This document shows, piece after piece, positions 4,176 through 60,026 of a DNA stretch of 64,000 bases. The translations under genes and the position numbers were made by a program. The first letter of the stretch is position 1, and every line of letters begins with the position of its first letter. The stretch comes from Sulfurisphaera javensis. GTDB lineage: Archaea; Thermoproteota; Thermoprotei_A; Sulfolobales; Sulfolobaceae. The notes beneath the pieces were generated by a model. It was not told the origin of the DNA, searched no databases, and was given only the letters and a program-made list of their open reading frames with translations. Location: the NCBI RefSeq assembly GCF_041154675.1, contig NZ_AP031322.1:2479812-2543811 (forward strand), in the 5' to 3' direction.

Positions 4176-5000
4176 TTATTTTTTCCACCTAATCACAAAG
4201 GTTTTCATTTCGGGATTTATAATCTTCAAAACTAAAACATTTTCATTTTGTATAAATTCATGTTTAGTTTTTATTTTGTCAAAATCTAAGAGGTTTTCAG
4301 AATAAACCGTAAGTTCGTTTGCTTCTGCCCAAGAAGGTTTCCATGGAAGTTCAACTTTAATTTTAAAATAGTATGTAGGATATGGCACAAACGAACCAAC
4401 ACCATCCTCCCTTTCATTAATAAATTCTTTATACCAAATATAATATCCCCATTTTACTATTTGCCCGGGTAAGAGGGATGGATTGAGAGAATAAGAGATT
4501 TTTAGGCTTCCTTTATTGTTAATTTTTTCGCAAGAAATGTTAGGAGTTCCCAGATCGAAAGGATCAAACACTTTTATTTTTCTACATCTAATACTATAGT
4601 AACCAGCCTCGGCTAAATAAACAGATTCCATTCCATTTAATTCCCTAACAGTTGAAATAGGAAAAGAGATGTAAGTATAACTTTTGCTTAAGTCATATTT
4701 AGGTGAGACTTTAGCTTCTACTTCATGAACTAAATAATAAGCCATTTTCCTTTCCTTTATCTTCTCATAAACAGTCCCTCTTCTAATCTTATCATTTTCA
4801 ATCTTAACAGTACCATTAGGTTCCATAGCTTCTTTAATCAAGTTGATAATTTTTTGAAGAGATTTTCCTTTGAACTTTTCCTTTACTTCTTCAATGCTAA
4901 TTTCCTCATTCTCGTATAACCTATATAAAATGTAAGCAATGATCTTCCAATCAGAAGTATTTGAGATTATATCCATATTTTGAATATTATGTGTAAGCAT
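4176..5000 (-). CDS. Conserved protein: N-terminal winged-helix-like region plus beta-rich C-terminal domain
   Basis: 274 residues, no signal peptide or membrane helix. Residues about 15-75 look like a winged-helix domain (helical part, then VKIENDKIRRG as the wing). The rest is beta-rich with motifs shared with the paralogue at 43032-43853: CRKIKVFDPFDLG, a PSLLPGQIV.W.YY.W block, and VELPWKPS.A.A followed by NP.M...V.RW at the end. I know no function. The conserved Cys before the FDP motif and the strongly kept Trp residues suggest a defined fold, perhaps ligand sensing linked to DNA binding, but this is inference. It lies alone on the minus strand between the metal transporter and a PaREP1 gene. 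Confidence 0.75.
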   Translation of the reverse strand: MLTHNIQNMDIISNTSDWKIIAYILYRLYENEEISIEEVKEKFKGKSLQKIINLIKEAMEPNGTVKIENDKIRRGTVYEKIKERKMAYYLVHEVEAKVSPKYDLSKSYTYISFPISTVRELNGMESVYLAEAGYYSIRCRKIKVFDPFDLGTPNISCEKINNKGSLKISYSLNPSLLPGQIVKWGYYIWYKEFINEREDGVGSFVPYPTYYFKIKVELPWKPSWAEANELTVYSENLLDFDKIKTKHEFIQNENVLVLKIINPEMKTFVIRWKK

Positions 5001-19565: not shown

Positions 19566-19740
19566 ATTGCATTGGAACATTAACAAGATCATAGAAATTT
19601 TATTCATCACGAACCAAAAGAGCTCAATTTTTGAATTAAAAATATTTATTCCCTTATCAGAATATTCTAACAATGTTATGGGAATGTAATGTTCGTAAAA
19701 GTTCGCAACTACTAAATTTCACACTTCTGCGGGTGGTTTG

Positions 19741-20868
19741 ATGACTATATCCGCTAGACTAGAATTTAGTCATAAATATTCTTTTAATTCACCTATAAGG
19801 GGGACATTCAAATTAACAGTAGTTCCAGAAATGCTATCTGTAGCCTCAGGCTTTCATTACATAATTTTACTTGACACTTCTGGTTCAATGAGAGGAGAAA
19901 AAATCGAAACAGCAAAAAGAGGTGCAATTGAATTATTAAATAGAATACCTCAAGGAAACAAAGTTACGTTAATTACATTTTCTTCTTATGTAAATACTTT
20001 ATTTGAGTTTGAGGAAAGAAAGGATTTAGTTATTGAAAATATACAAAGAATTTATGCTAAAGGATACACAGCATTTCATACAGCATTAACTACTGCAGTA
20101 CAAATTGCTAAAAAGTATAATGTGCCGGGATATTTCATATTACTAACTGATGGACGCCCTACAGATAGAAAAGATATTCAAGCTTATGAAATGTTAGACT
20201 TTCCAAGAGAATTCAAAGTCATAGCTTATGGCATTGGCTATGATTATGAGGAAAGATTTTTGAAAATTATAGCTGATAAAACTGGCGGTATTTTCATTCA
20301 CATTCAAGATCCTAAGGAGATTATAAATTCACTTCCTCAAGCAGCTGTAACTAAAATAGGGGCAAAGGATGTCGTAATAGACATTGATGCACCATCATCA
20401 ATAAGGTTATTAAATTATCCCGGACCACCAGTAATATTAAATGCAATAGATAAAACAGTGACAATTTACGGTGAAACTACAATTCCAGCAAGATTTAACG
20501 GAAATGCATTAGTAGTAACGATTAGTTATGTAAATCCTTTAGATAACTTAAAAAAGAATATTACATTACAAGCTCAAGTTTATCCAGCAACTGATACCCA
20601 AATGTTTCTTAGTGGTATTAATAATGAGATTAATAATGAATATCAGTATTATGAGTTAATGAATAAACTTGCTGACCAAGTTAATTCAGAAAACTTAATA
20701 GAGGCTACAAAGACATTAAATCAAATGCAACAAATAGCACAACAAACAAAAAGGGTTGACTTAATTGAAACGACTAGGAAGTTACAACAAAGTATTGGAT
20801 CAACTAGAAATGTAGAACAGACTAGGAAAACCATAATGAGTGAAGTTACGAAAAAGATGAGATCATAA
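19741..20868 (+). CDS. vWA-domain protein (ArnB-like)
   Basis: 375 residues, soluble. vWA fold with a complete MIDAS site: DTSGSM at about residues 48-53, a Thr in KGYTAFHTAL, and Asp in LTDGRPTDRKD. A beta-sandwich region follows (about 210-285) and then a long helical tail rich in Gln. The layout resembles ArnB of Sulfolobus acidocaldarius, a phosphorylated vWA partner in archaellum control, but orthology is not claimed. Start: ATG 19741 is preferred over TTG 19738 since a GGGTGG site lies just upstream. It follows a membrane kinase on the same strand, so phosphorylation by that kinase is a reasonable guess. Confidence 0.88.
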   Translation: MTISARLEFSHKYSFNSPIRGTFKLTVVPEMLSVASGFHYIILLDTSGSMRGEKIETAKRGAIELLNRIPQGNKVTLITFSSYVNTLFEFEERKDLVIENIQRIYAKGYTAFHTALTTAVQIAKKYNVPGYFILLTDGRPTDRKDIQAYEMLDFPREFKVIAYGIGYDYEERFLKIIADKTGGIFIHIQDPKEIINSLPQAAVTKIGAKDVVIDIDAPSSIRLLNYPGPPVILNAIDKTVTIYGETTIPARFNGNALVVTISYVNPLDNLKKNITLQAQVYPATDTQMFLSGINNEINNEYQYYELMNKLADQVNSENLIEATKTLNQMQQIAQQTKRVDLIETTRKLQQSIGSTRNVEQTRKTIMSEVTKKMRS

Positions 20869-43031: not shown

Positions 43032-43853
43032 TTATTTCGTTGGTGGTTTCCAAACTAATGCATAAGCTCCCATTCGAGGATTAACTAACTCTAATGTAAC
43101 CATATTATTTTCTATCTTTAAGTTATATGGAATAGTAATCGGATTTAAGAATATATTAACGGGAGAAGTTATGGATTCTTTAGCTTGAGCTAAACTGGGT
43201 TTCCATGGTAATTCAACGGTTATTTTAGCTAAATACGTTGGTGAAGCTATTGCAATTCCCTCACTACTGTAATCAACATTATACTTTTTCATAATTTCTT
43301 CAATAGTAGTACCGTAATACTCTTTATCCCAAGTGTAATAACTCCACGTAACTATTTGTCCTGGAATTAATGAAGGTTGAAAAGAAACGTCAATATTTAC
43401 AATATTCCCTTGTTGTTGTTTTTTGCAATCGGCTGTCACTTTACCTAAGTTTAATGGATCATAAATTCTAACTTTATTACATCTTACTACGTCAGAAGAT
43501 GTCTTTGAGTGATGTTTATGCATTATATGACTGATTTTATCTAAAGGTGTTAATGGTATTAATTCAGTTAAAGAACTGTAAGCCCTGTCTCCTCTTTCTG
43601 ATACGTTAATTTTGATATCTCTTTTTAGAACAAAATAATTTTTGTTCTCGTTATAAATATACCCTTTTTTTATTTTATTTCCATCAATTTTTATTACACC
43701 ATTTTCCTCGAGAACATGCTTAATTATATTATATTTTCCTTCATATTGTCTATTATCTGGAATGATGTCTGTGATATAGATCTCATCATAATTGTAAAGC
43801 TTGTTAAGTATTGATGCAATAAGTTGTTTTGTTAAAGGAGAGAGGTCTTCCAT
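43032..43853 (-). CDS. Conserved protein, paralogue of 4176-5000 (winged-helix-like plus beta domain)
   Basis: 273 residues, soluble. N-terminal helical part (LTKQLIASILNKLYNYDEIYI) and wing-like VIKIDGNKIKKG, then the beta-rich region with the same anchors as its paralogue: CNKVRIYDPLNLG, PSLIPGQIVTWSYYTW, VELPWKPSLAQAKE and the final VNPRMGAYALVWK. Both lie near kinase or surface-sensor genes but with no operon link. The fold and role are unknown; the pair defines a small paralogous family within 39 kb. Confidence 0.75.
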   Translation of the reverse strand: MEDLSPLTKQLIASILNKLYNYDEIYITDIIPDNRQYEGKYNIIKHVLEENGVIKIDGNKIKKGYIYNENKNYFVLKRDIKINVSERGDRAYSSLTELIPLTPLDKISHIMHKHHSKTSSDVVRCNKVRIYDPLNLGKVTADCKKQQQGNIVNIDVSFQPSLIPGQIVTWSYYTWDKEYYGTTIEEIMKKYNVDYSSEGIAIASPTYLAKITVELPWKPSLAQAKESITSPVNIFLNPITIPYNLKIENNMVTLELVNPRMGAYALVWKPPTK

Positions 43854-44539: not shown

Positions 44540-46269
44540 TCACGGTATGTAGTATGTAGGTATTGTTATTGTAAAAGTTTGATTATTATATTGTATTATC
44601 ATTATTGTTTGGTATATCACGTTATTTGGTGTTAATCCTTGTGGTAATGTGTTTAACGTGACCGTAATAATATTTTGACCAACGGTCAAATAATTTGGTG
44701 TTATGTTTACTGCCACTAAATTAGTCTTATCTACAACTACTCCAATTATCTTTGCATTCACGTTAGAGTCTAAGTATAAAGACATTGTACCATTACTCTT
44801 TATAACACCAGCATAATTAGGCCTTATTGTAGGAGGTTGCATCATAGGAAAAGCTGATTGTTGAGCAACTATAGGAGTAGACTTCTTACCCCCCTCTTTA
44901 TGGTAAGAATACCACCCACAACAGCAAAAACACTTGCAATCACTACTATTAGCACTAAAAATATGAAATAATTATTAGAAGAACTAACTGAAGAAGTAGT
45001 CGAACTAGAAATTATAGGAGCAGAAGAAGTTGAAACTGTAGAGGAGCTAGGGAGATAAGTAACGGAATAAATGACACTAACAGAATTAGAATCTTCATTA
45101 ACCACATAAACGTAACCGTTTATAGGATCGTATACTGCACTTACTGGATTTTCCCCTACAGTTATTGTGTACAATAATTGAGTATTATTTATTATATACA
45201 CAACTCCATCTCCTAAAACATAAACGTAACCGTTAGCTTGATCGTAAACACCACACTTAGGTGCAAAAGCTTTAATTGAAGTTATAATGGAAGTACCAGA
45301 AACAACTACTACAGTATTATCTCCAGGGTCCATAAAGTATACGTAGCCATTCGAAGGATTGTAAGTAGCTGTTGTAAGTAAACCACCAGCATTTATTGTA
45401 TATGGAGTAGGAGTACTAGAAACAACTGATATTGTTCCAGCTAAATAATTTGTTATGTACAAATACCCATTTGAGGGATCGTAAGTAACAGAGTAAGGTT
45501 CAACTTCAACCTTAATAGATCCAATAATTGATGTGCCTGAAATGATTGAAACTTGATTAGAAGGGATATTAAAAGTTGGATTACAAAAATCTGCTACAAA
45601 TACATCTGTGTTAGCTGGATCATAAGTAGCGGAAATAGGGTTAAATCCTATTGGTATATTCGCTATAACAGAAGTATCAGAGATTACTATAATATTTTCA
45701 CCACTATAGTCAACAAGATATATATAACCGTTAGCTGGGTCATAAATCGCATCAGTTATATAAATGTGATTATAAAATGGTGGACTTAAGGCTGAAGTAG
45801 GTGGAGTACCTAAAGATATTGTTGTGATAACGGTTGTATTAGAAATAACAGAGACAGAGAATGAGCTATTATCAACCACGTATATATAACCATTAGTGGG
45901 GTCATAAACTCCTAAAACTGGATTTGGCTCTACGGAGATATTAGCTATAACTGATGTGTTAGCTATAACTGAAACTGTATTAGATCTTGAATTTAATACA
46001 TAAATATAGTTATTTTTTGGATCGTAAATTGCATATGCTGGCGAAGAACCTACTTTAATAGTTAAAGTTTTAAATTCAATATGAGTAAGAACAATAGATG
46101 CTTCAGATAGAATACCAAGTTTTGATAAATCTTTTGTAGAGTAAGATTTAGCATTATTATTTTGAGTACCCTCTATATGAGAAATTCCATAAACGTTGAA
46201 AGTTAAACTAAACAATAAAATAGTCAGCAAAAATAAGACGAGATTTAAACCTACTTTTCTAATAGACAT
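44540..46269 (-). pseudogene. Surface beta-propeller protein with cytoplasmic C-terminal domain, frameshifted in a G run
   Basis: Signal-like helix at the N terminus (LNLVLFLLTILLFSLTFNVYG), then a YncE-type seven-bladed propeller of repeats such as PNPVLGVYDP.NGYIYVVD.S and VSVI, a Ser-rich linker, and a membrane helix (FLVLIVVIASVFAVVGGIL) followed by a basic stop-transfer KRG. Here the frame ends at 44869 after a run of six G. One more G would continue as GGKKSTPIVAQQSAFPMMQPP into the C-terminal domain (44540-44845: GVIKSNG, TLNTLPQGL, final YYIP), exactly as in the intact protein at 56303-58666. So it is either a phase-variable switch, decay or a sequencing error. It would be an external sensor or adhesin with an inner domain. 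Confidence 0.85.
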
Positions 46270-46934
46270 CCTATTATATTCTCTTCCTTTTTATATTTAA
46301 AGATAACGATAAATTTCAAATACCCCTTTTATCTTTCATGTGCTTTCTGTATAAATCTTTATGAAAATTTTGACTATTAATCTATTTCCAGGCATATTTT
46401 AACTTTTCAAGAGTTAGAGATATTAATAGATTGTCTTTCTTTTTCCCTTAATAAAACAACAAACAAGATAAAAATTTTTAAATATAATTTGAGGTTTTAA
46501 AATATCGATTTTACTACTAATATCTAGTTAAGTAGTCTATACATAACTTACGAATTAAGCTCTATGTAAAAATCAAATTATAAACGTTAATGGTTGAGTC
46601 ATGCTATTAGGGCTTATATAAAGTTCTTGCAAACAAAATATCATTTGTAATTGCTTAGAACGAAAGCTTTCTCGATAAAAATATCTCTTATCATTTGATT
46701 GCCTCCATTATGTCACAATTTTGGTACAAATTATTTCTATAACTTTCCTATATACTTTTAATATTTAGCATATATAGACATTAACATTTTATCTTTACAT
46801 AGAGACCAAAAAGTCTTAAATTTGCACCTAAGTAGCCACATTATTAACGCGTTCTGTGAATGTACATTGTAATCTAGGGCTATCGCATAAATATTCTTAT
46901 AGAATATTTATTGACATTATTTCCACAATTTACA
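46270..46934. other. Intergenic region upstream of the propeller gene
   Basis: AT-rich. Holds the promoter of the minus-strand propeller gene and repeat copy D (46710-46806). No other gene or RNA seen. Confidence 0.45.
46710..46806 (-). repeat. Interspersed repeat, copy D
   Basis: Minus-strand copy: TCTATGTAAAGATAAAATGT, TATATATGCTAAATATTAAA and GTTATAGAAATAATTTGTACC-like end follow the same order as in copies A and B, with more changes. It lies about 440 bp upstream of the propeller gene on the same strand. Confidence 0.65.
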
Positions 46935-48011
46935 TTAATCTTGGTAATAGGCTATACTATTTATAGTTGTTAAATTGCCATTAGTAGATATATAAAGTGT
47001 TATTATATACTGATTACCTTTAATAAGATTTGGTAAATTTCCAAAATTAATCACTATATCATTATTTCCTGGATTTAGAAATACTGGATTTATATTATTT
47101 GATACCAAAGAGGTCCCCTGGATTTGTGCAGATGCTATTACAGCCGTTGTAGGGGAGTATAGAGTAAGTTGTGCATAACCATTACTTTTTATTACTCCTT
47201 GACCTATTTGAGAAAATTGATTTACGTATGTTTGCTGTAATTGCTGTCCATATGAAGGTTGCTGTATTAGTTGCACTGGGTTTTGCGCCATAATTGGAGT
47301 AGGATAATTAGTTAATGAAAGTTTATTAATTATTTTGCTTAACCCATAATATGCAAACATATAACCAATAAATGAAATAATAGGTATTGCAATTAATGTT
47401 CCACCAACTCTTGTTGTCCCCTCATTATATTCATCTCCTACCCTATAAGTACCAATGCCTAACAAAATTTCTCCTATGAGAATTAGAGTTGTTCCTAGTA
47501 TAGCGGCTGAGTAGAAGATAATAATAATTGCAAGAGTTATGTTATTTTCTGTAGAAGAAATACTTGATGCATTAGGAGATGTGATGCTAGAAGTCGTAAT
47601 TGAATTCATAACTAAAGTCCCTAATAATAAAACAACAATTGGAGTTAGAATTGTAACTATTAGACCAATTAGAAATAATGTTCCACCAAGTTTGCCCATG
47701 CCAACATCCTTACCTAAATCTTTTAACTTTCCATAACCGCTCCTTAGCATAACAATACCTAAAATTTCTAAGATTAGTGATACTAAAGGGAATATAATCA
47801 CTGACATACCAATACCTCCAGTTGCAAATGATAAAGTAGATGGTAATCCCGAACTAGATGAGGCTGAAGAAATGCCAAGTAAAATAAATAAATAACTTAG
47901 AGAATACACAGCAATAATAACTAAAATTATCAAAATCTGAGATATGAGTGACAGTAATGCTCCATTTTTCAATTTCCTTAATCCTTCTAATTCTACGTTT
48001 TGTGAACTCAT
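46935..48011 (-). CDS. DUF973-type membrane protein with shared C-terminal domain
   Basis: 358 residues. About five or six membrane helices from residue 15 to 230, with the DUF973 opening EGLRKLKNGALLSLI and later GEILLGIGTYRVGDEYNEG and VGGTLIAIPIISFIGYMFAYYGL. A Gln-rich linker (QQPSYGQQLQQ) leads to a C-terminal domain of about 90 residues: GVIKSNGYAQLTLYS, GTSLVSNNINP, LNPGNNDIVI. That domain is shared with three surface proteins in this window. DUF973 proteins are typical for Sulfolobales and have no proven role. In this protein the domain probably lies inside the cell. Confidence 0.85.
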   Translation of the reverse strand: MSSQNVELEGLRKLKNGALLSLISQILIILVIIAVYSLSYLFILLGISSASSSSGLPSTLSFATGGIGMSVIIFPLVSLILEILGIVMLRSGYGKLKDLGKDVGMGKLGGTLFLIGLIVTILTPIVVLLLGTLVMNSITTSSITSPNASSISSTENNITLAIIIIFYSAAILGTTLILIGEILLGIGTYRVGDEYNEGTTRVGGTLIAIPIISFIGYMFAYYGLSKIINKLSLTNYPTPIMAQNPVQLIQQPSYGQQLQQTYVNQFSQIGQGVIKSNGYAQLTLYSPTTAVIASAQIQGTSLVSNNINPVFLNPGNNDIVINFGNLPNLIKGNQYIITLYISTNGNLTTINSIAYYQD

Positions 48012-48589
48012 ATCTATCGATATATACTAATTTTTCCCTATTAATAAGCTTTATTTAAACGCTAAAATATAAACAAAATTGAACAGAAAATGTAGATAAG
48101 AGAAAATATTAATTATATAATTTGTGCATTTTAATAAGGAAAACTTCATAATATTTTTACTCTTCTTAAATCGTCATATTCGTTCTTCTTATATTCTTAG
48201 TTAATCCAAATAAATCAATTAAGACGGTGATATTCTGTTGGCAAGAATTCGATATTTGAAAACATTTTTCCTTTTTCTGTAATTTAATTATATTGCAATA
48301 TTTTATACATCATATTCTGTGCATTGGTAAATAAATTTAATCCAATGAATCAACGGAAAGAAATGGAATTTAATAGAGTTTAATTAAACTTAGAATAATG
48401 TAAGGATAGTGCTTAATGCTGAGAGAGATTTAGTAACTCTCTTTTAATACAAACATTAATACTAAAATAGAAGAAATAATGATAAGATAAATATTATCGG
48501 ACTCTTTCACTTTAATTTTTCTGGTTTTAGTTAGAATTTTTTATTTGTATATATTTAAGGATTTGAAACTTCTCTAACTTCAAGCACTA

Positions 48590-49330
48590 CCGTATCTCTT
48601 TAATCTTATTTGGCCATTTTATATCCTTAGTTGTACAATATTCCAAGAATCTTAATTTTACTGTAAACACATTGCCCTTATAGCTAATAATAATCTTAGC
48701 TAATTCTGAATTATACGTAAATATTAGATGTCTTTGTTTTTATAGATCTGTTTGGTTCAAATCTGCATTTATTTCTATAACGTTGTTGCCTACTGAAAGC
48801 CATCTTTAAAATACCTGGTAATATGTCTTCTTTTTTATGAATTCTTTCATTATCCAAAACTCCAGAGATATAAATTATGTTCATTTAATATTACTTATTA
48901 AAACATCTAACCAAGCGTCTTTTCTTTTTCCGATCCTTGCAAATGGAACTATAATCATCCTTTGGTATGATCTGACTTTGATACGTATCCTATTAAACCT
49001 CTATAATCATTTATTTTGAAGAAATATGTAACTGTTGAAAGTTGCATTTGGTGAAATTAGCTTATAATCGGATGACTTAGTAATCTCTCTAATATACTTG
49101 ATTTTAACTTTACTGTCTCTATCATGCCATGTTAAATTATAATTAGCATCACGTGCACTTTCCTAATTGTTTTGTTCAACTCTAATCATTGCTTCCGTTG
49201 TTTATTAAATAAAAATTTATCGTTATAAATTATCTTTTCTCCCATGACATTATTTCTATCAAACTATGTTAATGAAACTACTGATTGAGCTACTAAGTTT
49301 TTCGATACGATAAATCTCAGCCAGAACCCT
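48590..49330 (-). pseudogene. Decayed gene remnant in a long spacer
   Basis: The 48012-49573 spacer has no intact gene, but on the minus strand several short pieces read like protein in changing frames: DANYNLTWHDRDSKVKIKYI, PFARIGKRKDAWLDVLIS, and at the end VFTVKLRFLEYCTTKDIKW then KIKEIR before a stop. Many stops and shifts separate them. I cannot name the family. The kinase gene just downstream on this strand may once have had this neighbour. The rest of the spacer shows nothing. Confidence 0.4.
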
Positions 49331-49573
49331 TTATTTTTATTCGATAAAGATAAAAAGAAATCCTTGTTATCCATATATAGAAGAAATAAATAACTATTTA
49401 AATCTTTATTTATGTTAGGAGACTTTTCAAAGAAAATATAGGATGTCTGTAATATAAACTTTCATTTTGTAAATGATATTGACGTTATTGTGAAAACAGA
49501 TCCTTTAGGTTAATCTTTTGATTATACAACCGTTCTATAAATGAGAAGTAAACTTTTGTCCCAACAAAAAAGT

Positions 49574-51175
49574 TTACAGAGTATTAGCTATTTCTTGGGC
49601 TGTTGGTCTTAATTGTGGTTCTGGATTTAATGTTTTTATGATTACCTGCTGTAATTCTTGAGGCGTTGTTAGAGGTATGGTTGGTCTCCATGTTGACAGT
49701 ATTTGCTTAGCTTGACGTACTAAAGTTAAAGCAACGCTAATATTACCATTAATATAAGCATCTAACACTTTATCTAAGTAATCTCCAGCTGGATTATCAT
49801 GTTGTAAGGTAAGCATGACATAAGCTGTCATACCAAGAGCAAATATATCCATTTTAGGATCAGCTCCTTTTCCAGTTATTATTGCCTCAACATGTTCTGG
49901 TGGTGCATAAGAAGGAGTTACTTGCTCAATTTTTCCTCCAATTTTTACTGCTGAACCTAAATCACCTAGTTTAATTATTCCATCAATATTCCTATAAACT
50001 TCCTCTCCTAAATATCCGGGATTTCTCTTTAAGAATATGTTTTGAGGTTTAATATCTAAATGAACATAACCACTTGAGTGTAAATATGATAAGGCTACAG
50101 CTACTTGTTTTATTATTTTCTTTACGATAAGTGGCCAATACGTTGAATATGTAATATTTTGATTTGTTAGTAGTTTATCTGCGCTTCCTCCCTCCATAAA
50201 TTCCATAACTATTGCTGGTGGGTTCTTAAAATAAGCCTCAGCATTCCCTTTAAGTGCTTCCATGATCATGTTAGAATCAACATAAATTCCGAAAATTGTT
50301 ACAAAATTTGGATTTTGTGATAGTCTCTTCAAATTTTCACTCTCGTTAAATAATTGATCAAAACCGCTTTTTGCTTGTAAAGTTACAGTACCGCTTTTTG
50401 TTGGAGTTATTGAAAGAACTTTCATAGCGTATTTAGTACCACCTAAAGATACTTTTAGTACATAACCATTTCCACCAGTACCTATAACTGAATCAACCTT
50501 ATATCCGTGAATTTCTCTACCTACCCATACGTTTGGATCCCAATTAGATAACGAGAGATTTATTGGTAATTGATTCTGTCCAATAGGAGGTTGAGTAGGT
50601 GTTGGATAAGTTCCTGGTTTGTTAAATTCTATTCTAAGTCTTTGTTTTTTACCATTTTTGTCAACAATCTCTTTTTCAGCAACAATATGGGTTCTTGGAA
50701 TGTTTGGGTTAGTATAAATAGGATTATAGAATTTCATACATAGGGGGAAATCCAATAATACACTGTAGGCAGTTGTTGGCTGGTAATTTATTTCAATCAC
50801 ATTACCGGAGAGCTTTGTTTTAGCTGGTCTTGGAAAATAAACCATATTATCTACTATTTGAGGACAGAAAATAGCTAATGGAGATCCTTTTATCTCTAGC
50901 CTTGCTACGTCAGTATTAAAAGCAAGGGTCTTTGATTCTATTATTGCTATCCAATTTCTGACTGGTAAATTTCTAACCCTAATCTCAATTATTCTCTTTT
51001 TATTAGTTGCTAGTGAAATGCCTACAGCTAGAAACTCAAAAAATAAGAGAGGAATAAAGTAGCCCGTAAAGGTGAATATATTAATACCTCCGGATGCAGA
51101 TATTAATCCTAAGAAAGGATATAGCAAAAATGTATATAATATGAAAGTTATTATAATTGCCTTTGCTACGCCCAT
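49574..51175 (-). CDS. Membrane-anchored Ser/Thr protein kinase with extra beta domain
   Basis: 533 residues. N-terminal helix pair (about 7-28 and 33-56), similar to the kinase at 18210 (TFLLYP.LGLI). A middle domain (about 65-195), with beta-like strands and a KLSGNVIEINYQP motif, is not recognised. A Pro/Gln-rich linker leads to a Hanks-type kinase from about 215: IGTGGNGYVL, YAMKVL, HLDIKPQN (about 370), DLG (about 405), SYAPPEH. Non-RD catalytic loop and helical insert as in the other three kinases. It lies among four membrane proteins with a shared cytoplasmic domain, which makes them possible partners. Kinase activity is likely since Lys, Asp and Asn of the core are kept. Confidence 0.93.
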   Translation of the reverse strand: MGVAKAIIITFILYTFLLYPFLGLISASGGINIFTFTGYFIPLLFFEFLAVGISLATNKKRIIEIRVRNLPVRNWIAIIESKTLAFNTDVARLEIKGSPLAIFCPQIVDNMVYFPRPAKTKLSGNVIEINYQPTTAYSVLLDFPLCMKFYNPIYTNPNIPRTHIVAEKEIVDKNGKKQRLRIEFNKPGTYPTPTQPPIGQNQLPINLSLSNWDPNVWVGREIHGYKVDSVIGTGGNGYVLKVSLGGTKYAMKVLSITPTKSGTVTLQAKSGFDQLFNESENLKRLSQNPNFVTIFGIYVDSNMIMEALKGNAEAYFKNPPAIVMEFMEGGSADKLLTNQNITYSTYWPLIVKKIIKQVAVALSYLHSSGYVHLDIKPQNIFLKRNPGYLGEEVYRNIDGIIKLGDLGSAVKIGGKIEQVTPSYAPPEHVEAIITGKGADPKMDIFALGMTAYVMLTLQHDNPAGDYLDKVLDAYINGNISVALTLVRQAKQILSTWRPTIPLTTPQELQQVIIKTLNPEPQLRPTAQEIANTL

Positions 51176-51532
51176 GAATTAATAAGTGATAACTTGATAT
51201 ATAAATGTTGCTTTCTTATGAACGTTAAAAGATTTACGAACAAAAAGGAAGACTCCATTAATATTATGAGAAATCAAATGATTTGAAATCCTAATTATTT
51301 TTATTGTAACGTATCAGAGATAATTCTTTTTATAAGAAGTATTATATGGAATCTCCAAATATAGATCTATTATATTAATAGCCCATAATTTATAATTTTA
51401 TATGTTTTTATATTATTACTTAGAAATTATTTATTAATAAGTAAGATTTTGCTGTGGTAAGATGTATAATTTAAAAGGAATAAATGATTTTAAAGGAACA
51501 GCATAGATGCTAATTCCAATAAGTTTTAAGCA

Positions 51533-51732
51533 GGGAGTGTTCAATTGCATTCATGAAAATCAACAAATAATAAGATATAAATTGTAATCAACATTATTTT
51601 CTGTATGAGTTATACGATCCACATTAAATGAGTTCTTATACATTTACGGGAACTAACGTTGCGCATATATAATTTCTTTACGTTTTTAATTTTTGCATAC
51701 TACATATTACATGACTGCATTCGAACAGTCCC
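51533..51732. mobile_element. 200-bp MITE of the IS1 type
   Basis: Ends GGGAGTGTTCAATTGCATTC and (right end, reversed) GGGACTGTTCGAATGCAGTC match the ends of the IS1-family element at 58863-60026 (GGGAGTGTTGGAATGCAGTC). It is flanked by TTTAAGCA (51525-51532) and TTTAAGCC (51733-51740), an 8-bp duplication with one change. No coding capacity. It sits in the spacer 51176-51880, which holds nothing else but promoters. Confidence 0.85.
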
Positions 51733-51916
51733 TTTAAGCCTATTCTCTAAATCTTCAAACTTTAAAACTTCTCAGAAATACTAGAGCTTTTCATAGTAGT
51801 TGTAATATCTTTTGTAAGTGTGAGAGTAAATATAACAGATTCGTGTCTTCTTAACGAAAAACTGTATATGACATATTCTCATGAAAGATTTATATATTAT
51901 TAGAAATGATATTAAA

Positions 51917-53170
51917 ATGGATATGATTGGGAAACTAAGATTAATATCCATATTTATTTTAACATTACTTTTGATAGATTACGGACTTCAAATGCCATCT
52001 TTTGCTATCCTCTCAAATTATTCTATTCCTAGTGTAATGAATACTAATCCGACTACAATGTTTCATCCAGTTAAAATTCCGTTTAAATTTACTTTAACTA
52101 TTGCAAATATTTTAGTTAATGCACAATCCTCTCAGCAAAGTGTTACGTTTAACATTGTAAATAATCAATATATTTCAGGAAGCTATACTACTACTATTTC
52201 AGTATCACCAACTACTCTAACTCCCAATTCTACAAATAGTGTATCAGTATCAATATCTGGGAATAAATTACCTATAACTATTAATATACCACCAATTAAC
52301 ATAGGGGGCACACAAGTTTACTCTGGTGGGCAGTTTCAGTTGACTATTAACGCTCTAGGTACTTTTACGTGTGCTATTCCCGGATTGACTATTAACGCCT
52401 TTGTCTTCAGTGGAGGAGGATATATAAGTGTTATTGGAGAAATTGTAGGTTATGTTAATGTTAGTGGTGATGGCACTACATCTACTCAAAAGCTATGTTG
52501 GACTTCTCCTGGAGCTCAAAAGATAACAATAGAAACATCTAATGTAAAAAGCGGTAATGTTGTATTAGATATATATGATTTATCCTATGTTTTATCAATT
52601 TGTGTTTTCGTAAAGGCAAGCTCAGCTCTTGGCGGTAGTACTCAAATCACTGTAATTCCTCAAACTCAAGTAGGGAGTTTCAAAGGAGACCCAAGTTCAG
52701 TTCAATTCGATCTTAGTGTGTCATCAAGCATATTTCCAGAATTATCTTTGCCAATTCTCCTGCCCTTAGTCTCAGTACCCTTACTAGTAGGCGGAGTAGT
52801 TGCATATAGAAGGAAAAGAAAAGGTGGTAATAAGAGTCGGCCTAAGGTATCTAGTACGCCACAATATACTTACTCTCAGCCCTCAATTAAGTACGTTTAT
52901 GCTGGTGCAATAAGAAGGACCGGGGCTATTAAGCTTGTGTTAAATTCGACTGTAAAAGCTAGAATTGTCTCTATCTATGTGGAAGGGACGAATTACATCG
53001 CAAATAATATTACTCCTAGCGAAATACAACCTGGTAACAATGTTATTAGGGGATTCCTCAATCAAACGCCTTATAGTTTTAAGCAAGGTACAATATACAA
53101 TATTATAATGCATTATGAAGTTAATGGAAACTTATACGTTTTAAAAATACCTTCTTATTATATTCCATGA
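51917..53170 (+). CDS. Surface protein with one membrane helix and shared C-terminal domain
   Basis: 417 residues from ATG 51917. A signal-like helix (KLRLISIFILTLLLIDYGL), an external beta-rich part (about 45-280) with a Ser/Thr-rich strand pattern (NNQYISGSYTTTISVSPTT), a membrane helix near 285-305 (LPILLPLVSVPLLVGGVVAY) with basic RRKRKGG after it, then the common C-terminal domain: YVYAGAIRRTGAIKLVLNS, GTNYIANNITPSEIQPGNN and IPSYYIP. The topology puts the end in the cytoplasm. Start: the frame extends to ATG 51881, but TATATATT at 51891-51898 lies inside that extension, so ATG 51917 or 51923 is preferred. Role unknown; likely sensor or surface attachment. Confidence 0.78.
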   Translation: MDMIGKLRLISIFILTLLLIDYGLQMPSFAILSNYSIPSVMNTNPTTMFHPVKIPFKFTLTIANILVNAQSSQQSVTFNIVNNQYISGSYTTTISVSPTTLTPNSTNSVSVSISGNKLPITINIPPINIGGTQVYSGGQFQLTINALGTFTCAIPGLTINAFVFSGGGYISVIGEIVGYVNVSGDGTTSTQKLCWTSPGAQKITIETSNVKSGNVVLDIYDLSYVLSICVFVKASSALGGSTQITVIPQTQVGSFKGDPSSVQFDLSVSSSIFPELSLPILLPLVSVPLLVGGVVAYRRKRKGGNKSRPKVSSTPQYTYSQPSIKYVYAGAIRRTGAIKLVLNSTVKARIVSIYVEGTNYIANNITPSEIQPGNNVIRGFLNQTPYSFKQGTIYNIIMHYEVNGNLYVLKIPSYYIP

Positions 53171-53171
53171 T

Positions 53172-53524
53172 CTTGTGATGAAGTCCCATTGGCTTGTTGG
53201 TTCTCTTTCTTTTTTGCCATTCTTGTCTCACTTAATTTTATTTCTTCAAGTTTTTTAGCGTCTATTTTGTCGCTTTTCTTTCCTCTTTAGTTTTGATATT
53301 GTTAGTGGGTTTACTATTCTTATCTCGTAGTCCTTGTTTAGTGCTCTTATTACTTTTCTTGTGTATATTCCTGAGTCTTCTAGTATTATTTTTGATCCAC
53401 TTGGTAGTATTTTTCTTATTTCTTCGTATCCTTTTTCATCGTTTGTTAGCTTGTATAGTTTGCCTTGGTAGCTTAAGTACAAGGTTTTCTTTCCTATGTC
53501 TATTCCTGCTATTAATCCCTCCAT
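53172..53524 (-). mobile_element. IS110-family transposase remnant
   Basis: From ATG 53524: LIAGIDIGKKTLYLS has the first Asp, and KIILEDSGIYTRKVIRAL the Glu, of the DEDD recombinase domain; then VNPLTISKLKR. The frame is lost near 53280; one base shifted, the IS110 pattern KIDAKKLEEI appears, and the sequence ends close to the stop of the neighbouring gene. Only the N-terminal third remains, so no transposition by itself. The longest frame would begin at TTG 53554, inside the leader; ATG is more likely. Confidence 0.85.
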
Positions 53525-53655
53525 TTTCCCAACCTCATTCGGGCTTTTGCCCAACTTCCGGTACGGATGGAGGGAGGCCAGGCTAGCAACCGAGCTTGAG
53601 GCTCAGCTAGGGAGCCGGCCTCGTTCATCGGGTTTGAGTTATACAAACCCGACTA
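53525..53655 (-). ncRNA. Candidate bridge RNA in the IS110 leader
   Basis: Directly 5' of the IS110 transposase start lies a GC-rich stretch with three hairpins: TCGGGTTTG/CAAACCCGA (53628-53652, 9 bp, 7-nt loop); a long interrupted stem GAGGCC/GGCCTC, CTAGC/GCTAG and GAGC/GCTC (53574-53622); and GGGC/GCCC (53541-53552). IS110 elements are known to encode a bridge RNA between left end and transposase; the place, size and fold fit. Proof of the guide loops is not possible here. Confidence 0.6.
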
Positions 53656-53817
53656 ATATGTTTTATATGAGCTAGGGATAATACTCGACTTAAGTTCCTA
53701 TCCGCACTCAGAGTTAATAGACATATTGATAAGAAACATTAAACGTTACGTGATATGTAGATACATAATGAGTTTTTATATTTATGGCGCTAGCCAGTCC
53801 GCTAAACTTCTCACTTT

Positions 53818-55815
53818 TCATATTATTCTTAGTAGCTCCTCTATCGCCGGAAGCGCTGTCAGTAATGTGAGAACTACAAGAACCACTGTCAAGACGATAC
53901 TTATGATAGTGAGATCATGTAATCTTCTGTGTGCCTCATATTCCCCGAACATCCTTATCCTCTCAATCATCCTCTCATACATTCTATTCACGCCAGAGGT
54001 CTCCTTGAAAGTCTCAAATAATTGGTTGTAGGCATCGTTCTGAAGTATGTCAATATTGAAGAAATCGGAGAAATCCTTTGCGCCATCAGCCATTATTTCA
54101 TGGAGATGCTCAAAAGCGAGGGATCCCCTCAACCACATGGAGAAGAAACCCACTCTCTCGTACTGCATTAGATATCTATCAATTCTTTTGTTCATTAATA
54201 TCATGGTTTGTGACAGAATAGACAAGACTGCAGTGATGAAAATGCCCCAGCTTACGTCCCAGTTTAACTGCCACTTGTACAGATCTATCCTGTCCTCATC
54301 TACCCTTACATTTCTCTCGGGCTCCAGGTTAACTATCCAGTCGTCATAAAGAATAGTTTGATTAATTATATCTACCCTTGTAGAGCTACATAGCTCCATG
54401 ATGGAATCTTTTATCCTCATGGCTAGCTCTACGCGTTCTGAATATATGTCTAAATAATCATGAAAGATGTATGCCAGCAGAAGTGACAGATCCGAATCAG
54501 GCCTTAAGATATACCTCCCATCACTGAATTCCACTGATTTCGAAACTAGTAACCGATCATCCTTGGCCACGAGGCCTAAGGAATAATGAAAGAGACTGTT
54601 TCTGAGGTCAAAGATAGAGTGAAAGAATCTACTGGCGAATAGGGCAGGATGTCTACTATTTTTTAATTTTCCACGTTTTAATAATCTTTTCCTCATGGGC
54701 CGTGCCACAAAATACCAGGCTAAGAAGATCATGAAGAATTGTAGGCCGGTAAGAGTAAGCTTATCTCCTTGATCATTAGCATTTTGATCATTAGCATTCT
54801 GGTTTGATGTACTTATTTTCTCTTCAATAAGAAATTCCTTTCCCCCTGAGTGTTTAACAATATTTTTGTCCTTAACTCCAAGATATTTCGAAAAGAATGA
54901 TTCAATGTCTATATAAAATCCAGCCTCCGGATCAGTGATATGATGCAATAATTTCTCAAATAATTTCCTATTTTCCTTGCCCTCTTTTTGACTTTCACCG
55001 TCTGGCCTAAAGCTAAAAACTCCCACAAGGGCAGCTACATTATTTAACTTTCGTTTCATAATTTTCTGAGTATTTTCAACATTATTTTTATCTTCATCAT
55101 AACCATGTTCTAATGTAATAACAAGAAACAATCTAAATTCCAATTTATCTTCCGGATAGCTTTCAAGTATATCCCCTAAATTATCTTGATTTGAGGAATC
55201 AGGAACTTTTTCCATTTTGTACTTATCGGAATGATTATCTTTCTTTAAAATGTAATGGAAAGGCTTCTTCTCATTATCCTTCAGAACATATATGGGTAAA
55301 TTCCCATGATATAACTCAATAATTACTACATCATTTGATCTCTCAGAGAATAATGTCAATCTGGTTTTACTCAGAAATATAAGCAAAGGGTCTGCATCAT
55401 TAGCAGACAAGTTTTGATTACTAACAATCGCAAAATCGTTTAATATAGCTTCCTCTTCAAAAACTTTGGGCATAGAAATGTTTTCCTCAAGATCTTTCAG
55501 ATCAAAGTCATTATTACCTTTCTCTTTTTTTATGGATTCTAAATCTACAACTTCGCTGAATATTTGTTTTACATTTTTAATGCTAATTTCAGAGTTCTTC
55601 TTCATAGTAATAGTTTGTTTTAGGGATTCCATCAATTTATCAAGTGTAACGTTCTCTAGTTTCTCAATCTCTTTTAAGCTTATCGCACTTGTCCCTAGCA
55701 TATCAAAACCCAGAGAAACGACAAGTGTGGCTTTCTCAATAAATCCTATTATGTTATTAATTTTCCTTTGCATATAATCCTTGTTACTGGTATCACTATC
55801 AATATTCTCTACCAT
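53818..55815 (-). CDS. Large membrane protein of unknown function, foreign base composition
   Basis: 665 residues. N-terminal 340 residues are mostly charged and helical with an alpha/beta section (VVIIELYHGNLPIYVL, FRLFLVITLEHGYDED). A NANDQNANDQ repeat precedes a first membrane helix (LTGLQFFMIFLAWYFVA, about 353-370), a second is near 530 (WGIFITAVLSILSQTMILM), and a third ends the protein (IISIVLTVVLVVLTLLTALPAI). No family recognised; the C-terminal helix-turn after a long helical stretch vaguely recalls channel or effector proteins. Its codons use more G and C (especially 53818-54700) than neighbours, and it sits next to an IS110 remnant, so recent transfer is likely. A defence role is possible but only by analogy. 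Confidence 0.75.
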   Translation of the reverse strand: MVENIDSDTSNKDYMQRKINNIIGFIEKATLVVSLGFDMLGTSAISLKEIEKLENVTLDKLMESLKQTITMKKNSEISIKNVKQIFSEVVDLESIKKEKGNNDFDLKDLEENISMPKVFEEEAILNDFAIVSNQNLSANDADPLLIFLSKTRLTLFSERSNDVVIIELYHGNLPIYVLKDNEKKPFHYILKKDNHSDKYKMEKVPDSSNQDNLGDILESYPEDKLEFRLFLVITLEHGYDEDKNNVENTQKIMKRKLNNVAALVGVFSFRPDGESQKEGKENRKLFEKLLHHITDPEAGFYIDIESFFSKYLGVKDKNIVKHSGGKEFLIEEKISTSNQNANDQNANDQGDKLTLTGLQFFMIFLAWYFVARPMRKRLLKRGKLKNSRHPALFASRFFHSIFDLRNSLFHYSLGLVAKDDRLLVSKSVEFSDGRYILRPDSDLSLLLAYIFHDYLDIYSERVELAMRIKDSIMELCSSTRVDIINQTILYDDWIVNLEPERNVRVDEDRIDLYKWQLNWDVSWGIFITAVLSILSQTMILMNKRIDRYLMQYERVGFFSMWLRGSLAFEHLHEIMADGAKDFSDFFNIDILQNDAYNQLFETFKETSGVNRMYERMIERIRMFGEYEAHRRLHDLTIISIVLTVVLVVLTLLTALPAIEELLRII

Positions 55816-56293
55816 GATTTAATATGTGTAGTATAACTTTTTAAAAGTTTGGTTTTACATAATTTCCTATATTACGCAAAAATTATTTTTACTAAGTCAA
55901 AGTGAGGAGCGTGAGAAATGGCATTAATTTAGTATGTAGACAAAGGACTACATGCTATTGTCTCTAAAAATTAAATTAACTCACATTAAGAGATAAACTA
56001 CTCACATCCAGTAATGTAATAAGGCTAATGTAAATAATGCGAATTCAATTAAACAGTGCTTATTCAGAGCATATCGCCTTTTTCATCAGAGACAATAACG
56101 AATTAATTTGGAGCATATGATCTCCCTCGAGTGAGTCAATTATAATATTATTAGTTATTTCTACAACTTAATGTTTAGCGTATATAATCGTTCATCCAAT
56201 CTTTGTATAGAGATTAGTGATGCATTGAATATGTATCTAGACATTATGGACACACTCCTCACTAAGCAAAGTTTTTATATAAGGTATTTTTAA
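55816..56293. other. Intergenic region with repeat copy E and a strong promoter
   Basis: AT-rich spacer between divergent genes. Holds repeat copy E on the minus strand (56140-56214) and the TATA box of the next gene (TTTATATAA, 56274-56282). Nothing else seen. Confidence 0.5.
56140..56214 (-). repeat. Interspersed repeat, copy E
   Basis: Shortest copy: TCTCTATACAAAGATTGGAT, GATTATATACGCTAAACATT and GTAGAAATAAC on the minus strand in the family order. It lies 60 bp upstream of the TATA box of the propeller gene, in reverse orientation. Confidence 0.6.
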
Positions 56294-56302
56294 GTGTATA
56301 TA

Positions 56303-58666
56303 ATGATGATTATGAGAAGAAACAAGATATTGCTATCTCTATTACTAATTACCATAGAGCTTTTAGCGTTGAGCATTCTAGTAGTTAATTCAACTACTTC
56401 TTCTACATATACTATTTCGTTCGTTGAATATGGATTACCCTTAGGCTCTACTTGGTCTGTAACTTTGAACGGACAAACAAAAGTAGCATATGCTAATGAA
56501 AATATAACCTTTTATGAGCCAAATGGAAATTATCAGTATATAGTGAATAGTTCTTTGTTATATTACAATGCGTCAATTTCGAAAGGTAATATCACAGTTA
56601 ATAACGAAGACGTTAGCCAAACTATTTTCTTTACACTCTCTACCAATCATGTATTTGGATACATACCAGTTATCCCGCGTACTACTGGATTAGCTTATGA
56701 TCCACAAAACAAATTATTATATGTGCCAATACACAATTACCAAAGTTATTTCTATTATGTTTATATAATTAATACTTCAGTAAATCAAGTTATAAATGGT
56801 ATTAATTTGAATAATTTTTTTCCATATAGTATCATATATGATCCGCAGAATAATCTGCTCTACTTAACAGGTTTTTATTCTCAATCTTCATATATGTACG
56901 GTTTAGGTCTTGAAGTTATTAATCCCTCAACAAATAAAATAATTTGTTCTGGTATTCTTCAACCATATAATAATAATATATATTGTGCTTATGATGCTAT
57001 AATTCCTCTTTACGATCCTAATAATAATTTAATTTACATAGCAGATCCTGCTACTGCTAGTATACTTGCTATTGCACCTCAGTTAAATAATTCATTAGTT
57101 GCAAATATATCTATTTCTCCGGGTAATGTATACTCATTTCATTCTTCTTATTCGGCACTTACATACGACCCCGATAATAATTTAATATATGTAGCAGATT
57201 ACGTATTACAAGCTCTAACAGTCATAAATCCGTTGACAGAAAAAGTGATAGCAAACATACCTCTTCCTTACACACCATATGGTGTTACTGTAGATACGAA
57301 AGACAATCTAATATATGTGGCTGGCTCCAACGGCATACTAATTGTTAATGGGATAACAAATGAGATACAAGGGAATATTAATATAAATTATTTTGATCCA
57401 AGTTATATAATGTATGATTCTATTAATAATTTAATATATGCTGATGGTAATGGTTTATATATAATTAACGCCAGTAACAATAATATAACTAATATATGTT
57501 ATTCAGAAGGTGGTTGGATTGATATGGTTTATGATCAAAATAATCATATAATGTATTTTGTCTCTGCTGGAGGTAGTGCTGTTGGGATGTTCTATCCCCC
57601 AAACATAAACTATAATGTAACATTTGAGGAAACTGGTTTGCCTAATGGAACTCACTGGTCGGTAACTCTAAATACCATGAAGGAGGCATCCTCTTCAAGC
57701 AATATAACATTTAATGTGCCTAATGGAACTTATTTATATACAATTAATGTCCAGAATAGTGGATACAATATTATAACTCCGAAAGTAGGAACAATAATAG
57801 TTAATGGTAACAACGTAATTATAGACGTTAAGTTTGTTCCTAACATAACCACGTATCCAATTACTTTTGAGGCAGTAGGTTTACCAAAAGGATTACCATG
57901 GTCTGTCACACTTTCCGGAACTTCCACTAACGGACAGTTCGTAAATATTACTCAGACATCTGATGAAAATACGATTAAATTTAATCTGACTTCTGGAACA
58001 TACTTTTATGTTATTAGACTACCTTCTGGCTATCATACTAATCAACTAAACGGGTCAATTACAGTCACAAATAGTCCACAAGTAATAAAAATATCAGTCA
58101 TGCCCACTGAGACTACATCTACTCAAACACAGACTACCACTACTATACAAACCTCTTCAACAAGTGTGTCCACTACTACCTCTACTACCTCTTCTTCCCC
58201 GATATCTTCTAATATTGCGTTGAGTTCCTCTTCATTATCTAGTCAATCTTTGCTTACTACTCCAATCTTGATTTTAGCTATTGTAAGTTTGTTTGCTGTT
58301 GTTAGTGGTGTTCTTGTTTTTAGGAAGGGAAGAAATAATTCATCCTCTCATAGTGGAATGATGGCTACTCAGCCTGTTATTAGGCCGATTTATAGTGGAG
58401 TTATTAGGAGTAATGGGATTCTTAAACTTTATTTAGATTCTAATATTGTTGCTCGCATAATTAGTGTTAGTGTGGCTGGAACAAATCTGATAGGAACAAA
58501 TGTTAGTCCTAATACCTTAAATATCGGTCAAAATACTATCTTGGTTACTTTGAATACTGTCCCTCAAGGGTTAGTACCAAACAGTGCAATTTATCAAACA
58601 GTTTTAACAATTGAGTATAATAAACAAACGTTTACAATATCAATACCAACGTACTATATACCATAA
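56303..58666 (+). CDS. Surface beta-propeller protein with thermopsin-like repeats and shared C-terminal domain
   Basis: 787 residues from ATG 56303. Signal helix, one beta repeat (YTISFVEYGLPLGSTWSVTL), a propeller with blades like YDPQNNLLYV and IYVAD (about 110-430), two more repeats of the first kind (YNVTFEETGLPNGTHWSVTL; YPITFEAVGLPKGLPWSVTL), a Ser/Thr linker, a membrane helix (ILILAIVSLFAVVSGVLVF) and the common C-terminal domain (GVIRSNG, LYLDSN, TLNTVPQGL, final YYIP). It is the intact form of the layout broken at 44540-46269. The repeats are of the type used by thermopsins and other surface proteins. GTG 56294 is possible, but TATA at 56274-56282 is about 25 bp before ATG 56303. 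Likely a sensor or adhesin with an inner signalling or docking end. Confidence 0.88.
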   Translation: MMIMRRNKILLSLLLITIELLALSILVVNSTTSSTYTISFVEYGLPLGSTWSVTLNGQTKVAYANENITFYEPNGNYQYIVNSSLLYYNASISKGNITVNNEDVSQTIFFTLSTNHVFGYIPVIPRTTGLAYDPQNKLLYVPIHNYQSYFYYVYIINTSVNQVINGINLNNFFPYSIIYDPQNNLLYLTGFYSQSSYMYGLGLEVINPSTNKIICSGILQPYNNNIYCAYDAIIPLYDPNNNLIYIADPATASILAIAPQLNNSLVANISISPGNVYSFHSSYSALTYDPDNNLIYVADYVLQALTVINPLTEKVIANIPLPYTPYGVTVDTKDNLIYVAGSNGILIVNGITNEIQGNININYFDPSYIMYDSINNLIYADGNGLYIINASNNNITNICYSEGGWIDMVYDQNNHIMYFVSAGGSAVGMFYPPNINYNVTFEETGLPNGTHWSVTLNTMKEASSSSNITFNVPNGTYLYTINVQNSGYNIITPKVGTIIVNGNNVIIDVKFVPNITTYPITFEAVGLPKGLPWSVTLSGTSTNGQFVNITQTSDENTIKFNLTSGTYFYVIRLPSGYHTNQLNGSITVTNSPQVIKISVMPTETTSTQTQTTTTIQTSSTSVSTTTSTTSSSPISSNIALSSSSLSSQSLLTTPILILAIVSLFAVVSGVLVFRKGRNNSSSHSGMMATQPVIRPIYSGVIRSNGILKLYLDSNIVARIISVSVAGTNLIGTNVSPNTLNIGQNTILVTLNTVPQGLVPNSAIYQTVLTIEYNKQTFTISIPTYYIP

Positions 58667-58862: not shown

Positions 58863-60026
58863 GGGAGTGTTGGAATGCAGTCATGAAAATTAGTATGTAA
58901 TACGTAAAAAATTAAAAACGTCAAAAAATTATATAAGCAAAAAGTTTTAACGTAAAAATCAACAGAAAAACACTTGTGCTAGGGTTGCCGTCAAATTAAT
59001 GGGTAACCAGTTATGAACACAGCAACCCTAGCACAACTAATACTTCTCATACTTCAATATAAAAACATTAAGCCCAAAAAACACAACTTGAAGAACATAT
59101 CACAAGCACTAGCAAATTACATACTAGGAACACCAATAAACAAACTAACCCTACCAAAATCAACAACCTACTACTACATAAACAAACTAAAAATACCCAA
59201 GAGAAGAAAACAAAAAACAAGAGAAGAAACAATAACTTGCCCAAAATGCAAATCACAAAACATAATAAAAAAACGGTTCATCAAGAGGAAAAAAGAAATA
59301 TAAATGCAAAACATGCAACACAACATTCTACGAAGCAAAATACCATAGGTTAAGTAAAGACGAAAAGAGAAGAATAATACAAGAATATGTTAACAATATG
59401 AGTATGAGAAGTATCTCACGTGTTTCCAATAGAGACGTTTCTACTGTTTATCACGTGATTAGGAAAATTGGTCTTAATGCTTATCTTGCTCTCCTTGATC
59501 TTCAAGGTTTGATAAAGAATTATAGTGTTAGGGAGAAGATTTTTGATGAGCAGTGGACTTTTTATCGTGTTAGGCGTGGTTCTAAGAGGTGTGATTTGTG
59601 GAATTGGACTTGTTTGGCTGATGGTGTTCCTTACTCTTCTGTTCATGATAAGAGGAATTATGATGGCTTGAGCTCGTTGTTGATAGTTTTACCAAGAGGT
59701 GGTGTTAATTATTCTGATGATTATCAAGTGTATCAAGTTCTTGATAATCATCAAGTTGGTAAGCAGTATACTTATCGTATTGAGAGTTTTCATTCTATGG
59801 TGAGGAGTTGTCTTGCTCGTTTTAATCGTTTTACTAAGGCTGTTAATAGGAGTATTAGTATGGTTGAGTATAGTTTGAGTTTGCTTATTGTTATGAGGGG
59901 TAAGGTGTTTTCTAAGGTCCCTACTCCTTTTAATCAAGTTTGGTTGGAAAATGTAAAGAAGATTAGAGAGAGTTTAATTTAGCTCGTATTACATACTAAT
60001 TTTCATGACTGCACTCCAACACTCCC
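58863..60026 (+). mobile_element. IS1-family insertion sequence, 1164 bp
   Basis: Ends are inverted repeats of about 41 bp with few differences (GGGAGTGTTGGAATGCAGTC and, right end reversed, GGGAGTGTTGGAGTGCAGTC). AATGAAAA flanks both sides (58855-58862, 60027-60034), the 8-bp target duplication expected of IS1. Size and protein fit the archaeal ISC1173-like group. The clean duplication speaks for a recent insertion. Confidence 0.92.
59013..59982 (+). CDS. IS1-family transposase, in two frames joined at an A7C run
   Basis: First part (59013-59303): helical N terminus and zinc-finger start CPKCKSQN. Second part: CKTCNTTFYEAKYHRLS, helix-turn-helix, then the IS1 DDE domain with DEQWTFYRV, YSDDYQVY and the catalytic Glu in YRIESFHSMVRS, ending at 59982. 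The shift needed is +1 in position (one base skipped) at AAAAAAAC near 59271, where six A would join the parts (KNGSSRGKKKYKCKTC). E. coli IS1 makes its transposase by frameshifting on a similar A run, though by -1. Here slippage of RNA polymerase or ribosome, mutation or sequence error are all open. The coding strand is rich in A and C up to about 59395 and in T and G after it. Confidence 0.85.

Follow-up and report, generated by a model that had tools for sequence, protein, structure and literature searches.

The window analysed here, 64,000 nucleotides of the 2.57 Mb genome of Sulfurisphaera javensis (positions 2,479,812–2,543,811), contains four genes for membrane proteins that close with one C-terminal domain of 93–94 residues: two beta-propeller proteins, a beta-rich surface protein and a polytopic protein of the Pfam family DUF973 (PF06157). 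This domain is homologous to the immunoglobulin-like (Ig-like) head of Sulfolobales type IV pilins and, judged from the sequences that carry it, is a mobile module found on several protein types. We think it probable, on balance, that a pilin-head module has been reused as an intracellular docking domain; the homology, the fold, the architectures and the topology of the single-pass proteins come from our results, and from these we infer the inner position of the domain in DUF973 proteins and its docking role.

Kinship with type IV pilin heads

The four C-terminal stretches can be aligned with 19 invariant columns, the other three being 65, 39 and 35% identical to the first, and all of them match the end of PF06157 above its curated cut-off (expectation values, E, of 4.4e-11, 1.8e-68, 9e-14 and 6.6e-12). 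An earlier inspection of this DNA (hereafter the sequence-only reading) had described a common C-terminal region of about 95 residues in four genes, mostly ending YYIP, and both points hold: YYIP closes three copies and YYQD the DUF973 copy. What that reading missed is that the domain is a pilin head, is already contained within the Pfam DUF973 model, and occurs mostly on DUF973-type proteins (five of the eight copies in this genome and 93 of the 136 collected).

A search with a profile of the four window copies (A1) reached pilin-type proteins of the three other genomes of the genus at E 9.5e-5 to 6.0e-4. In these small proteins a class III signal and a helix are followed by the shared domain, and a class III signal pilin carrying the domain matches the solved pilins 8TIB (E 7.1e-27), 8FJS (7.8e-24), 6NAV (1e-21), 6W8X (4.8e-19) and 8Q30 (1.7e-6). 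Because much of the full-length match is due to the helix, heads were also tested alone, and a pilin-type head by itself finds 8TIB (E 1.3e-8), 6NAV (1.2e-7), 6W8X (1.7e-5) and 8FJS (2.1e-5). A profile of 103 non-pilin copies recovered 13 of 13 pilin-type heads, which were separated by eye from 12 frames, at E 3.5e-8 to 6.6e-24 (200,000 sequences), and the non-pilin and pilin-head profiles match each other with a probability of 99.6. Since both sets had been collected by one iterated profile, the first-round A1 matches are the independent sign of kinship.

Structure prediction, which the sequence-only reading had proposed as a check, yielded an Ig-like fold (predicted local distance difference test score, pLDDT, of 86 for a model built from four sequences) whose top four matches are the Sulfolobales pili 6W8X, 8TIB, 6NAV and 8Q30 (Z 12.0, 11.7, 11.2 and 10.7, values ranked by size and not tied to the order of the entries), with copper chaperones (Z 9.1) as the next unrelated matches, then a Pyrobaculum pilus (8.9) and FlaF/FlaG (7.9). 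The archaellum stator FlaF/FlaG and the archaellins have a related Ig-like fold (Z 6.5–7.9) but match less well than the pilins, with no direct sequence match better than E 0.088. Some searches weigh against the kinship: the non-pilin profile did not reach the solved pilins directly, its best match being 6PBK FlaG at E 0.088; a profile search of the PDB with A1 alone returned nothing useful; and Foldseek gave, among the matches listed, general Ig folds only.

The adhesive type IV pilins of Sulfolobales (8TIB/8TIF, 6NAV, 6W8X, 8FJS and 8Q30) have the Ig-like head in common with the window domain by profile and by predicted fold, but the proteins around it differ. As read from the translations, the window proteins lack a class III signal and a pilin helix before the domain, which instead stands at the C terminus behind membrane helices and a linker. 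Other copies, such as that at locus L136, do have this signal and an N-terminal hydrophobic helix directly before the head. Relative to pilin heads, the non-pilin domain is also more charged and less rich in Ser/Thr. The sequence-only reading had staked itself on the domain not being a known external module; its closest solved relatives are indeed external pilus heads, yet the module is also carried by kinase, zinc-ribbon and PH-like proteins.

The kinship also bears on the Pfam model itself. PF06157 has 309 positions, of which the shared tail makes up the last ~85. In a sample of the phylum, PF06157 is matched in 80 of 398 genomes, 60 of them outside the family (at the level of Sulfolobaceae), where all 66 matches listed (hand count) end at or before position 228, ahead of most of the domain; the last part of the model is also found without the membrane part. 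PF06157 is therefore a composite of a membrane family and a pilin head, which can occur apart, and ought to be divided into two models. In the window, the model is matched in full by the product of 46935–48011, whereas the other three proteins match its end only (positions 174–300, 180–305 and 223–305), without the DUF973 membrane part. The same junction explains why 8TIB, a solved pilus subunit, carries the name “DUF973 family protein”, and automatic names mix pilins with multi-pass proteins as a result of this composite model.

Distribution and architectures

The domain is neither unique to the window nor spread throughout the class. Across the S. javensis genome, A1 finds eight copies, far beyond chance, and a later profile (A3) finds 11 matches, pilin-type proteins included. 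The profile search suggested by the sequence-only reading, run with a profile of 62 non-pilin copies, detects the domain in 31 of 31 genomes of the family, mostly in several copies and with conserved columns, and in just one, with a weak match (E 3.6e-6), of the remaining 198 genomes of the class, so that 31 of the 32 positives among 229 genomes belong to the family. A viral origin was likewise rejected, as no relative of the DUF973 query was found in viral contigs or phages; relatives of this query are present on two Sulfolobus plasmid records (NZ_CP146017.1 and NC_006906.1), so plasmid-encoded proteins carry the pilin-head domain too. The 56303–58666 protein has no match in viral contigs, and the window kinase has three, at 25–27% identity.

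Several protein types carry the domain. Single-pass surface proteins with it comprise the three in the window, L047 (genome G001) and L196 (G018; a short frame). In genomes G019 and G020, domain and kinase lie on one CxxC-containing protein that has no hydrophobic segment (489-residue frames); L112 matches Pkinase (E 2.1e-27) and the DUF973 tail (E 1.4e-7), and the zinc ribbon only at E 0.043. The domain also occurs on a zinc-ribbon protein (L094; ribbon E 2.5e-10, bPH E 5.1e-4, the latter below its cut-off), on a bPH-type protein (L070; bPH E 1.1e-8), behind a soluble part on a plasmid-size contig (L097, G018:C2), and alone, without helix or signal (L099 and L111). In a tree of 103 copies, whose deep nodes are weak and which does not give the direction of transfer, the window trio forms one group (0.92) that the two other single-pass copies do not join, and pilins turn up at three or more positions. 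For the outer part of the 51917–53170 protein, relatives in genomes G012 and G015 end shortly past the helix, without the domain, which fits a gain of the domain in the S. javensis lineage.

The window trio of fusions is found in this genome only, among the 31, and one of its copies is frameshifted; transposase-like frames, judged by eye, lie close by (53255–53554 and 59013–59982), and the architectures are scattered in the tree. All of this would be expected if a mobile or recombining tail had simply been copied among membrane genes of this genome without any common function. We regard such neutral shuffling as very unlikely: it sits poorly with a domain that keeps its columns, mostly in several copies, in every genome of the family, and with the changes between the propeller domain copies (44540–44845 and its closest paralogue), which number 23/21/53 by codon position over 93 codons, an excess at third positions indicating that both evolved under selection on the protein over most of their past.

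The fusions also have a counterpart in gene order. Eleven loci, forming five independent groups of which three span more than one genome, have a DUF973-type gene no more than 400 bases away from a single-pass surface gene without the domain. Each of the four genus genomes (L044, at G000:C1:93485–98300, L135, L139 and L143) has a pair of DUF973 genes that faces a large single-pass surface gene end to end, with 3–11 bases between the frames. A general enrichment of surface genes near domain genes was rejected as weak (17 in 1,015 kb versus 4 in 400 kb, under a crude definition of a surface gene). The pairing of a DUF973 protein with a surface protein may take the form of neighbouring genes in some species and of fusion in the window.

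The side of the membrane

For the single-pass proteins, a place of the domain inside the cell is very likely. Their order of signal, low-charge outer part (2.3–3.4% lysine plus arginine, K+R), helix and basic residues predicts an inner domain, and in the kinase, zinc-ribbon and stand-alone forms no signal was seen. An inner domain is likely, at a lower confidence, in DUF973 proteins as well. Across 85 of these, the 16 residues past the last segment hold a mean of 1.72 K+R (10.7 per 100), to be compared with 12.1, 13.3 and 10.3 per 100 in the inner loops and 1.5 and 0.8 in the outer loops. The last segment measures 19–25 residues in 67 members, 33 in 13 and 42–61 in 5, a variability that a shallow hairpin would show. 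The linker before the domain contains 27% Pro/Gln in DUF973 proteins, 26% in single-pass proteins and 23% in other non-pilin copies, versus 6% in pilins. Median K+R of the domain itself is 1.2% in 22 pilins, 4.7% in 93 DUF973-type copies, 4.8% in 8 fragments, 7.3% in 8 soluble, PH and kinase copies and 8.5% in 5 single-pass copies, the DUF973 value lying above that of the pilins (p 4e-10).

Other observations tell against an inner DUF973 domain. Its charge is intermediate, differing from the pilins and also from the inner set (lower, p 0.005), and the window copy has only 2.2% K+R. The window DUF973 protein has five helices both by hydropathy and in a single-sequence AlphaFold2 (AF2) model, itself poor (pLDDT 60), and five helices with an inner N terminus would put the domain outside. 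The cytoplasmic place predicted by the sequence-only reading is thus upheld for the single-pass proteins by signal, helix and basic residues; for DUF973 proteins, charge and segment length speak for it, and helix count and model against it. Sequon counts were uninformative for sidedness, as pilin-type heads are likewise not enriched.

Were the DUF973 domain outside, these proteins might anchor, cap or assist adhesive pili, and the single-pass and soluble copies would be later side uses. Such an arrangement agrees with the five hydrophobic segments, with the nearest relatives in both fold and sequence being pilus heads, and with a DUF973 domain charge below that of inner copies. We nevertheless consider it unlikely, because the charge past the last segment is of inner type, the length of that segment varies, the linker is rich in Pro/Gln rather than Ser/Thr, and the domain is clearly richer in K+R than that of pilins; moreover, a pilus ATPase-like frame was not found at DUF973 loci in a crude motif scan run without a positive control.

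We return to the docking hypothesis, under which an Ig-like domain of the pilin-head family would have turned into a mobile module within this archaeal family. Its non-pilin copies, usually behind a Pro/Gln-rich linker and ending DUF973 and single-pass surface proteins, would mostly face the cytoplasm, as sequence logic predicts for the kinase, zinc-ribbon, PH-like and single-pass forms and as we propose for DUF973 proteins. There the domain would most likely serve in docking or self-association, gathering various surface proteins together with DUF973 proteins (and a kinase, in certain species) at shared sites beneath the membrane, so that different outer proteins would share one predicted binding partner. 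Such shared use is supported by the fusions that link one domain to receptors, to polytopic proteins and to a kinase. The sequence-only reading had imagined exchangeable outer sensors on a common inner domain; varied outer parts on one C-terminal domain are what we find, and the outer propellers may be sensors or adhesins. A broader version, in which one Ig-like family provides both outer pilus heads and an inner adaptor hub, with outer sensors fitted to the latter by gene fusion, is plausible but falls just short of what we would call probable.

The window locus and its kinases

The features of the locus are collected in table 1.

Table 1. Coordinates of the domain-bearing genes and of the kinase in the 64,000-nucleotide window.
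Feature	Position	Strand	Remarks
Shared C-terminal domain of first propeller, different frame	44540–44845	−	PF06157 positions 223–305, E 4.4e-11
Beta-propeller surface protein, 466 aa	44869–46269	−	Signal and C-terminal membrane helix (~44908–44964); frame stops before shared domain
Run of six G, junction of propeller frame and domain frame (frameshift)	44889–44894	−	
DUF973 polytopic membrane protein, 358 aa	46935–48011	−	PF06157 positions 1–305, E 1.8e-68
Protein kinase, two N-terminal hydrophobic segments	49574–51175	−	Pkinase E 2.3e-34; shared domain not found
Single-pass beta-rich surface protein, 417 aa	51917–53170	+	Frame open from 51881
Single-pass beta-propeller surface protein, 787 aa	56303–58666	+	Helix ~58265–58321; shared domain ~58376–58666

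Three of the five genes, counting 44540–46269 as one, are on the minus strand. The sequence-only reading did take 44540–46269 as a single gene, which is incorrect as it stands: the frame of the propeller and its helix ends ahead of the domain, and the domain is read in a different one. Decay, slippage and an assembly error are the candidate causes of this break, which, if real, is either recent or programmed. The displaced domain is 64% identical to that of the second propeller. The first propeller product has YVTN beta-propeller repeats (E 2.3e-21) and the second has repeated stretches of GLPxGTxWSVTLN type; the two are distant paralogues (26% identity, E 2.7e-11), so the non-shared parts, which do differ as had been claimed, are of three kinds and not four. 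In the DUF973 protein the shared domain (~46935–47207) is preceded by a Pro/Gln-rich linker, and in the 51917–53170 protein a helix (~52748–52804) is followed by a basic cluster and then by the shared domain (~52877–53170).

Further genes were observed around these. Between two domain genes, the minus strand encodes a protein of 665 residues (53818–55815) that has three hydrophobic segments and matches no Pfam family. A soluble-looking family of 273–277 residues is present at 43032–43853 and 4176–5000 (minus strand), with no Pfam match for the former; by eye, minus-strand frames near relatives of the 51917–53170 protein in two other genomes (L203 and L204) resemble this family. At L070, a membrane kinase (6269–7867, plus strand) has an N-terminal stretch of GLPxxxTxWxVxxxG type that resembles, by eye, the outer repeats of the 56303–58666 protein.

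The membrane kinase that the sequence-only reading noted amid the four genes is confirmed by its kinase domain and two N-terminal hydrophobic segments; it lies on the minus strand, about 1.56 kb from the DUF973 gene, with no open frame of 80 residues in the gap. The shared domain was not found in the N-terminal region of this kinase or of the tandem kinase described below (<2 bits). Four related kinases lie in or at the start of the window (30–662, 717–2312, 18210–19565 and 49574–51175), the other three being 58–71% identical to the last, and by their sequences they represent a local expansion. Behind one of them, a frame judged by eye to be vWA-domain-like (19738–20868) presumably resembles ArnB.

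The kinase at 49574–51175 might use the shared domain as its substrate or scaffold, and the outer parts might be its sensors. Such a role would agree with the position of this kinase between domain genes, with the fusions in G019 and G020 and with the recurrence of kinases beside DUF973 genes: each of the four genus genomes has a DUF973–kinase tandem on one strand, and for at least 6 of the 87 DUF973 genes a kinase is found no more than 2 kb away, measured from the domain, versus 1.0 expected (rotation p 0.0025, for kinases among the matches listed). However, four of these six are one orthologous pair, which leaves three independent cases; the window gap is wide, and the window kinase belongs to a local expansion and lacks the shared domain. 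We accordingly hold a dedicated kinase signalling set to be very unlikely. The rarity of a kinase beside a DUF973 gene, nearly all DUF973-type copies having no such neighbour, also counts against the docking hypothesis; among the kinase matches listed, 0 of 19 pilin-type genes lie within 2 kb of a kinase. The tie to kinases proposed in the sequence-only reading is hence patchy but real across genomes, and in the window consists of proximity only.

The window kinase has the same plan, an N-terminal membrane segment and a kinase domain, as the membrane-bound Sulfolobales kinases SiRe_0101 and SiRe_2056 in the accessible text of their description (PMC5682000), where the partner domains named for Sulfolobales kinases are transmembrane (TM), wHTH and TPR and do not include a pilin-head domain. 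The sequence-only reading knew of no description of such a set, and we found none in the portions available of the literature searched on pilins, kinases, Sulfolobus and Ig-like domains, a search whose scope excluded subscription journals; DUF973 or PF06157 is named there only in a database of cysteines. Within the text accessible, “DUF973” does not appear in the archaeal pilus census (PMC4858521), nor does “DUF” in papers on pilus structure (PMC11178852, PMC7347861 and PMC11178815). We accordingly see here a fold family that is already known, in a setting that is new.

In the portion available of PMC7347861, archaeal pili are viewed as the fusion of an ancient helix and an Ig-like domain that already existed. 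With a non-pilin family that carries the pilus-head domain, in part on the cytoplasmic side, it becomes possible to test where this head came from and how it was reused. If our reading is correct, this non-pilin family, clearly akin in sequence to archaeal pilus heads, would give a handle on the source or destination of the head, and, if the docking role holds, Sulfolobales would own a shared inner adaptor for surface proteins, through which outside signals might reach their many kinases.

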